Assembly: GCA_030691505.1 (NCBI GenBank)
Contig: JAUYEG010000111.1
Span: forward strand, 1 to 48,820
Length of the DNA: 48,820 nucleotides
Source of the DNA: Bacillota bacterium
GTDB taxonomy: Bacteria; Bacillota; Sulfobacillia; JAUYEG01
Direction of reading: 5' to 3'
The number at the start of each line of letters is the position of its first letter. Position 1 is the first letter of the stretch. The notes beneath the pieces are model-generated. The model searched no databases and was not told the origin of the DNA. It saw only the letters and a list, made by a program, of their open reading frames with translations. This document shows, piece by piece, positions 2,494-4,302 of the stretch. The translations under genes were made by a program, and so were the position numbers.

Positions 2494-2657
2494 CTTGGCA
2501 AACCGCTCCTTTTGTGGCTGGGGTATCCGATAGCCTGCTCGCGCCCGAGGCTGAGCCACGCCCTATCATTATGAGAGGAAAGCACTGTCGGATAACCTTA
2601 ACTGTGATTACCCGCAGTGCCCTGACGCGACGGCTCGCGAAGTGGCCCAAGTGGTCA
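2494..2657 (-). promoter_or_regulatory. Structured 5' leader of greA
   Basis: Between the predicted transcription start (about 2657) and the greA ATG lies a 164-base untranslated leader with two strong folds on the minus strand. Hairpin I (2620-2582) has GCACTG plus CGGGTAA pairing with TTATCCG and CAGTGC, 13 pairs with one bulged A and a 12-base loop, followed by TTTCCTCTC. Hairpin II (2559-2514) is closed by GTGGCT/AGCCAC with an inner AGCCT/AGGCT stem, and ends immediately before the AAAAGGAG ribosome-binding site. It matches no riboswitch or T-box I recognise; regulatory function is inferred. Confidence 0.5.
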
Positions 2658-2663
2658 GACCAC

Positions 2664-2692
2664 ATTATAAATACGGCTTGTATCACTGTCAA
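2664..2692 (-). promoter_or_regulatory. Consensus sigma-A promoter of greA
   Basis: On the minus strand TTGACA (2692-2687), a 17-base spacer and TATAAT (2669-2664) match the vegetative consensus at all twelve positions. The predicted start is near 2657. It is the best promoter in the window and drives greA, with lysS downstream past a terminator. Confidence 0.9.
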
Positions 2693-2787: not shown

Positions 2788-3696
2788 CTAAGGGCTCGAA
2801 AGCTCCTCAACCCGCGGTTTGAGCTGCATCCGGTCCAGCATATCAAAGTAGTCCTGCTCGCTAAGTTGCTCCGGGCGGCGTCCGCTGAGGGCCACAAGAA
2901 TCGCCTCCAGTACATTGGCCCCGAGAGAGCGCCCGTTGAGTTCGGGCGAGATGGTGATAAGCAGCTTCGCCCCGCGGGATCGCAGAAGCTCGACGTCCTT
3001 GACCGTGATCGTGTTGGTAAGGATAGTTTTGCCACGCATGTCGAGGGGCATGTACTGCTTGATGTAGTGGAAGTCGCCACAGATCAGCTCGTTTGCACGG
3101 TACATTGACCCAAACCGGGGCCTGTTTTCCTGCTGTTTTTGGCCGGTGGGATACAGCATGCTGATCGGCAGGCGGCAGACGACCGGGGCTATGATGGACG
3201 CCAGCAGGTTCAGGGCTCCAAGGGACCTGATGCCCACCGGGACGCCGAGCGTGAAGGCCAGATCGCCGAAAGTGACCTTTGCGCCGGCCTCGACCAGCGC
3301 CCTGGCCATCCCATAGCGCGACACCGCCTGGACCACCAGCGCCGTCCGGCCCCGGAACTGGATACCCCGCTCACGTTCAAGGACGGAGATGATCCTGTAC
3401 TCCCACGTGTCCTTGATGCCGCCGCCGTCGACGATGGGGGTCTTTTCCGCCGCCCGCAGCAGCTTGAGGGCGTCACGGATGACAAGTTTGCGGCTCCCGG
3501 CGTGGACGTAGAGGTCTATGCCGCCCATACCGAAGGCGTCGATTTTCCCGTCGAGCTCTTTGATCAGGGCGACCGCCTTGTCAATGTCGCCGTCGGTGCC
3601 GCGCCGCTCGACGAGTATCCTTTCCCCCAGAATCTCCGTCTCGCCAAGATGGTCGCGGGACGAAGAACCCAAGCTGACGCTTACGACGTGTTTCAC
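2788..3696 (-). CDS. Quinate/shikimate 5-dehydrogenase-like Rossmann protein
   Basis: A 302-residue protein of a type annotated in Peptococcaceae-like Firmicutes as quinate 5-dehydrogenase; the true substrate is unknown to me. A Rossmann-like stretch, ALVVQAVSRYGMARALVEAG, lies near residue 120-140, preceded by an N-terminal part with the glycine-rich FGMGGIDLYVHAGSRK. No classical shikimate-dehydrogenase signature could be confirmed by eye, so the dehydrogenase role is tentative. The GTG start overlaps the stop of the upstream HTH gene (GTGA), with GGAGGTGCGAGGCA as ribosome-binding site, so the two are translationally coupled. No good terminator follows before the greA promoter. Confidence 0.6.
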   Translation of the reverse strand: MKHVVSVSLGSSSRDHLGETEILGERILVERRGTDGDIDKAVALIKELDGKIDAFGMGGIDLYVHAGSRKLVIRDALKLLRAAEKTPIVDGGGIKDTWEYRIISVLERERGIQFRGRTALVVQAVSRYGMARALVEAGAKVTFGDLAFTLGVPVGIRSLGALNLLASIIAPVVCRLPISMLYPTGQKQQENRPRFGSMYRANELICGDFHYIKQYMPLDMRGKTILTNTITVKDVELLRSRGAKLLITISPELNGRSLGANVLEAILVALSGRRPEQLSEQDYFDMLDRMQLKPRVEELSSP

Positions 3697-4247
3697 TGCC
3701 TCGCACCTCCAGCCTCTCCCCGCAACTGGCGGATGAGGTCACGCAATTGCTCCGGCTCGACCCGCTTGTCCGAGTTTATCGGCGAGCGCCCGATCTCAAC
3801 TGCGACGACTTCCCGGTCCACAAGCGCCCTGACCATTCTAGCCCGTTGATCCGAGCCGATGAAAATGAGGGCATCGTGCCGCCTGACCTGGGAAATCAGG
3901 TCCATGACTTCCTGAACGAGAGCCGAGCCGCTCCGCTGCGCGACGTAGTCCCAACGTTCGGCGTTGGTCATCAGCCAGACAAACTCAACTCCCTCCTCGG
4001 CGGCTACCGCCGCGAGCTCGTCTTTGTTGGCCACTGGAAATCCGACCAGGGCGATGCTCTTGCCCTTTCGCACTTCACCGAGGGTTTCAAGACGCGAGAT
4101 GAAGGTACGGTCAACTCCGAACTGGTAGGCAACCTGTTGCTGGGAGAGGCCTCGTGCGCGGTGCTCCAAAATGCCGTCAATCTGATGTTCGATCTTCTGC
4201 CGGTTTATAAGCTTGTCCGCCACGCGCACAAGCATGGAGGCCTTCAC
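3693..4247 (-). CDS. HTH DNA-binding regulator coupled to the dehydrogenase-like gene
   Basis: About 185 residues. Residues about 30-60 contain a Xre/ParB-like helix-turn-helix, RGLSQQQVAYQFGVDRTFIS. The rest (from about residue 65) is an alpha/beta domain with KSIALVGFPVANKDE and ALIFIGSDQRARMVRALVDR, which could sense a ligand or protein partner. The start is uncertain: GTG at 4247 with a GGGTGGTGGGGAC sequence is preferred, ATG at 4235 and TTG at 4295 are alternatives. Its stop overlaps the next gene by four bases, implying that regulator and enzyme-like protein act together. It lies 55 bases after dusB and may be co-transcribed with it. Confidence 0.7.
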   Translation of the reverse strand: MKASMLVRVADKLINRQKIEHQIDGILEHRARGLSQQQVAYQFGVDRTFISRLETLGEVRKGKSIALVGFPVANKDELAAVAAEEGVEFVWLMTNAERWDYVAQRSGSALVQEVMDLISQVRRHDALIFIGSDQRARMVRALVDREVVAVEIGRSPINSDKRVEPEQLRDLIRQLRGEAGGARQ

Positions 4248-4302
4248 GTCCCCACCACCCCCTGATGTGGCTGGGCTGTTCACAGAATCGAGCAACTACA
4301 TA

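Follow-up and report, generated by a model that had tools for sequence, protein, structure and literature searches.

The window (the whole stretch of DNA analysed here, 48,820 nucleotides from a bacterium of the Bacillota) contains dusB, two reading frames and greA, in this order and in one direction, followed by lysS; greA encodes a rescue factor of RNA polymerase. The transcription unit of greA has its own promoter at the 5' end and a terminator at the 3' end (Table 1). Neither of the intervening frames, at 2788-3696 and 3693-4295 on the minus strand, gave a Pfam or NCBIfam match.

Table 1 Features of the greA transcription unit in the window.
Feature	Position	Strand	Remarks
-35 hexamer TTGACA	2687-2692	minus	Exact consensus
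-10 hexamer TATAAT	2664-2669	minus	Spacer 17; exact consensus
Untranslated leader	2494-2657	minus	164 nt if the start lies 7 nt past the -10 (start assumed); fold z -2.79
Leader hairpin	2579-2623	minus	18 pairs, one bulge, 8-nt loop; z -6.33
Short U-rich stretch TTTCCTCTCAT after the hairpin core	2571-2581	minus	Weak-terminator score -12.5
Probable ribosome-binding site GGAG	2506-2509	minus	12 nt 5' of the greA ATG (long spacing); from the sequence
greA	2023-2493	minus	156 codons + stop; Pfam PF03449, PF01272; NCBIfam NF001263, TIGR01462, all above cut-off
Terminator between greA and lysS	1982-2010	minus	Score +21.8

As the preliminary description had it, the promoter is TTGACA-17-TATAAT (2692-2664, minus strand) and matches the consensus at 12 of 12 positions; its -10 lies 170 bases from the greA ATG. 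The 2.88-Mb genome contains five such perfect sites with a spacing of 16-18 (the reversed-pattern control gave none), and the greA site alone among them has a spacing of 17. Immediately 3' of the -10 there is a palindrome, GTGGTC-T-GACCAC (2651-2663), a possible operator, similar in look to those of the GntR type. An exact search for the pattern GTGGTCNGACCAC found it at one place in the genome (2663-2651), and a repressor regulon is therefore unsupported.

The leader had been put at 164 bases, a length that holds if transcription starts seven bases after the -10, which is an assumption. The whole leader folds with -66 kcal/mol, and 1 of 200 shuffles was equally good. This excess comes from one element, the hairpin at 2579-2623 (-24.5 kcal/mol; 0 of 200 shuffles as good), which starts 40 nt 3' of the -10 and in whose core GCACTG (2620-2615) is paired with CAGTGC (2587-2582). 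The earlier account of this hairpin as stable and with one bulge stands, while the 13 pairs assigned to it become 18 when G-U pairs are counted. The second structure of that account, a two-stem fold closing before the ribosome-binding site, had to be given up: three versions ending at or before the ATG gave z of +0.86 to +1.09 (162-175 of 200 shuffles as good) and a version reaching into greA gave +2.08 (198 of 200), so that all four versions of the 3' part of the leader are within the shuffle range. When the transcript was folded at increasing lengths, a candidate enclosing helix (2650-2642 with 2559-2551) came up at some of them, and no statistically supported antiterminator was obtained in the window. 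On the terminator score (threshold 0) the leader hairpin stands at -12.5 versus +21.8 for the terminator after greA. Neither the window leader nor any greA leader from 38 related loci (20 + 18) reached the gathering score of an Rfam family, which argues against a known riboswitch.

The promoter upstream of greA in other Bacillota

Among the genomes compared, that of the window is the sole member of its family, and the best GreA matches are about 62% identical; the comparison was therefore built on position and structure. The sample comprised 215 regions of up to 420 nt: 80 from the best 80 of 539 loci (one of which, L040, carries the title Deltaproteobacteria), that of the window itself, and 134 of the same class or phylum (25 of 29 loci plus 109 regions, the duplicates L087, L088, L090 and L093 being removed). 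Second copies, entries near contig ends and entries missing from the class listing were left out.

A perfect promoter (TTGACA and TATAAT at a spacing of 16-18, within 420 nt of greA) is present in 151 of the 215 regions: in 73 of the 80, in 77 of the 134 and in the window. A further 37 regions have 11 of 12 matches; the corresponding numbers in 645 dinucleotide shuffles were 0 and 1. The spacer is 17 in 123 of the 151, and the -10 lies at a median of 165 nt from where the GreA match begins. In a set of 106 non-redundant loci, 96 have a perfect promoter no more than 380 nt from greA, whereas the remainder of these loci contained a single perfect site in 403,664 sense bases and, on the opposite strand, none. 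Control stretches contained no perfect sites, either in the 420 nt 3' of greA (105 loci, with three sites of 11 matches) or at 880-1300 nt upstream (106 loci). Retention of a 12/12 promoter over such distances is unusual and calls for explanation. The perfect promoter is not universal: it is lacking in 64 of the 215 regions, over a quarter, and 27 have ten matches or fewer, 18 of them from a single family (f7) in the same class as the window.

A different pattern, GAATA-N(15-17)-CATATAT, was found in 17 of 188 greA leaders (39 in a looser form; none in reversed leaders), about 35-155 nt before greA in L004, L008, L017, L024, L109, L130 and others. It has the look of an additional promoter, one read by a sporulation sigma factor.

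The promoter-proximal hairpin

Folding in excess of chance was profiled over 183 leaders (seven near-duplicates were removed from 188 leaders for these counts). The mean z was -1.39 and -1.52 for 60-nt segments starting 0 and 20 nt past the -10, and -0.66 for those starting at 40 nt; elsewhere it was +0.08 to -0.41, except at 180 nt (-0.70) and 200 nt (-0.62), distances to which only 41 and 27 leaders extend. Above-chance folding is thus found mainly in the first 80 nt past the -10, and because of this profile a promoter-proximal hairpin can be regarded as a feature of greA leaders at large.

About 50 leaders, including that of the window, share a hairpin of the form (A)AGCACTG...CAGTGCT(T). 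When the commonest 7-mers were counted in the first ~100 nt of 176 leaders, with no motif chosen beforehand, the list was AGCACTG (39), GCACTGC (36), AAGCACT (33) and AGTGCTT (32), which are the two arms of one stem. GCACTG occurs in 54 of these leaders and its reversed spelling in one. For alignment, the hairpins were chosen by GCACT[GA], so the invariance of the core is in part there by construction. From the 60 leaders with the word, ten were removed because they had a different type of hairpin, lacked a good stem or were near-duplicates, and then four with long or unpaired inner parts, leaving 46; only the flanking pairs count as evidence of covariation because the core was used to select the sequences.

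In the 46 aligned hairpins 86.1% of cells pair (75.4, sd 1.0, in shuffles) and two-sided changes occur in 98 cells versus 42.2 (sd 6.3), a number reached in 0 of 500 shuffles. Pairs with two-sided changes number ten versus 7.7, a value that 20 of 500 shuffles attained. The alignment has a covariation score of 0.357, which falls to 0.078-0.113 when the partners are slid by 1-3 columns. An absence of compensatory changes had been named beforehand as an outcome that would count against RNA-based control; these counts show such changes to be present.

A leave-one-out model built from the other 45 leaders ranked the window hairpin first within the window, at 17.8 bits (E 0.01), ahead of a runner-up at 11.2 bits. 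The hairpin after the -10 of the window is accordingly assigned, with moderate support, to the (A)AGCACTG...CAGTGCT(T) type. The model R1, for which the window was included in training, gave its hairpin 21.7 bits. In a whole-genome scan with R1, in which 150 of 697 pre-selected candidates were scored, the window hairpin was not reported and the sole hit lay elsewhere (16.8 bits, E 0.69).

Of 398 genomes from the phylum, 104 contain a perfect promoter followed after 14-44 nt by GCACTG; among the matches listed, one belonged to the reversed control. Thirty loci were retrieved by promoter and GCACTG, and in 21 of them the site is directly before greA; in L203 the contig ends, and its letters are identical to those of L202, which precedes greA. 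The other eight loci include one site before a tRNA cluster and two before a NiCo riboswitch. R1 has a match in 45 of 119 genomes. Its 30 loci in other genomes divide into 17 with GreA and 13 without, and the hairpin was accordingly rejected as a signature of greA alone; several of the 13 resemble ordinary 3' terminators.

Three further observations concern related structures. Stems of the form AAAAGCACTG...CAGTGCTTTT, at the centre of L231, L241 and L248, turn up in several genomes in what look like 3' terminators and may therefore be a favoured terminator stem in the phylum. The NiCo riboswitches of L224 (1582-1686) and L225 (1364-1469) lie just 3' of a perfect promoter followed by ATCTCTTTGCACTG, and ATCTCTTTGCACTG is also found after the -10 in L217, G182:C34 and G164:C18. 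The leaders L106, L089, L191, L109, L110 and L013 have a hairpin of another type, AGTGTCAAG...CTTGACACT, with a U-rich stretch behind it; its word TGTCAAG is present in 17 of 188 leaders (reversed, 0), and L109 and L110 carry both types.

Terminator strength and comparison with GraL

Terminator scores above -10 were obtained for 46 of 183 leaders versus 4 of 366 shuffles, and scores above 0 for 12 versus 1; the window, at -12.5, is below both and its hairpin does not qualify as an intrinsic terminator of ordinary strength (score above 0). Fewer than four T are found in the next eight bases after 115 of 168 leader hairpins. Terminator-like hairpins are thus enriched in the greA leaders of the Bacillota and yet weak, from which partial termination or pausing can be read; for the window hairpin we infer the same.

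In E. coli about one third of the transcripts pass the terminator in the greA leader, and the short RNAs are known as GraL (PMC6829880). Feedback inhibition there needs GraL sequences in cis and a cleavage-active GreA; it was not seen in vitro, and the authors invoke a further, unidentified factor (PMC6829880). The gene controlled is the same as in the window and the layout is alike, with a promoter, a hairpin within tens of bases and about 150-170 nt from the -10 to the ATG (153 nt from the best -10 match in E. coli, 170 in the window). The promoter-close hairpin of a GraL-type leader is found in the window as the stem with z -6.33; it starts 40 nt past the -10, compared with 23 nt past the best -10 match in E. 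coli. The two leaders differ in their promoters, the best in 300 nt of E. coli having 9 of 12 matches (from a sequence scan, not mapped starts) and that of the window 12 of 12, and in terminator score (+8.5 versus -12.5). The analogy drawn in the preliminary description consequently fits in layout and departs in terminator strength. Its remark that the sequences are not alike was borne out: the E. coli greA leader has no GCACTG and the letters of its hairpin are unlike those of the window. A short RNA and feedback have been demonstrated for GraL, whereas the leader of the window is known from its sequence.

Naville and Gautheret (2010, PMC2965389) predicted attenuators 5' of greA in both bacilli and Clostridia, and greA attenuation in the Firmicutes is hence an idea already proposed and not new for the phylum. 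As described in the available part of that study, they are premature terminators in greA leaders, as here, reported with an antiterminator, for which there is no support in the window; unlike the present unit, they come without a promoter rule or a shared hairpin sequence, and no feature common to greA and rnk leaders was noted (PMC2965389). Among open-licence papers, no published description of the near-invariant perfect promoter or of the GCACTG hairpin consensus was found.

Readings of the promoter-hairpin unit

The recurrence of promoter and hairpin before greA in many Firmicutes suggests, by analogy with E. coli, that GreA production may be throttled at the start of the message. We favour, at roughly even chances, a GraL-like leader: close to the promoter, a hairpin acting as a weak terminator or pause site would restrict how many polymerases read on into greA. 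The consensus-perfect promoter for the housekeeping sigma factor would load RNA polymerase at a high rate; soon after the start, the strong hairpin and the short U-rich stretch would cause some complexes to pause or end, and the amount of GreA would be set by the fraction of polymerases passing the hairpin. GreA acts on polymerase that has paused or backtracked, and its own activity would therefore be the likeliest input, as it is in E. coli; such feedback in the organism of the window is speculative.

The perfect promoters, the fold excess past the -10, the covariation, the enrichment in terminator score, the presence of the GCACTG word before greA in 21 of the 30 retrieved loci, the E. coli layout and the predicted attenuators argue for the GraL-type leader. 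Against it stand the short U-rich stretch and the low score of the window, the lack of a supported antiterminator, the occurrence of the hairpin word away from greA, the 64 regions without a perfect promoter and the genome scan by R1 that missed the window hairpin. The E. coli feedback, unseen in vitro and with its extra factor unidentified (PMC6829880), is also counted against it.

Core letters that are constant while the flanking pairs vary would also fit a putative binding site, at which a protein or other partner reads the GCACTG/CAGTGC stem and controls read-through into greA, decay or translation. AGCACTG and AGTGCTT being the most frequent 7-mers of their respective arms, in a count made without a motif in mind, agrees with this; however, the invariance was partly built in when the 46 hairpins were picked by their core, the same word is found in apparent 3' terminators away from greA, where a regulator of greA would be unexpected, and no Rfam family was matched, and we consider a binding site rather unlikely. 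The hairpin could instead keep the greA message from being degraded from its 5' end, promoter and hairpin giving a high and steady level of GreA with no termination. Leaders that differ in sequence type do have a hairpin near the 5' end, often with no clear U-run, as in the 115 T-poor cases above, but combinations of hairpin and U-run are enriched over shuffles, which stability alone does not require, and protection of this kind seems improbable. We give just as little credence to the promoter alone being of importance, with greA a strong, constant housekeeping gene and the leader hairpin incidental. The promoter is more widely shared than any single leader hairpin, and another perfect promoter of the same genome precedes frames named rnpA and yidC by reading their translations; the covariation of the hairpin, the fold excess just past the -10 and a window hairpin better than 200 of 200 shuffles speak against it.

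The GraL-type reading can be taken one step further. The greA promoter of the Bacillota would be kept at the perfect consensus because binding then ceases to limit output, which would be settled after binding, during escape and at the first hairpin, where GreA acts. Promoter and hairpin would together form one GreA-sensing feedback unit, either independent of the E. coli GraL loop or long diverged from it. We hold this to be possible, if doubtful. How the cellular amount of GreA is set is an unsettled question for E. coli too, where the authors of PMC6829880 point to a further factor still to be identified; since much of the phylum retains a promoter-hairpin unit and includes species that can be cultured, the question can be put to the test in organisms other than E. 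coli.
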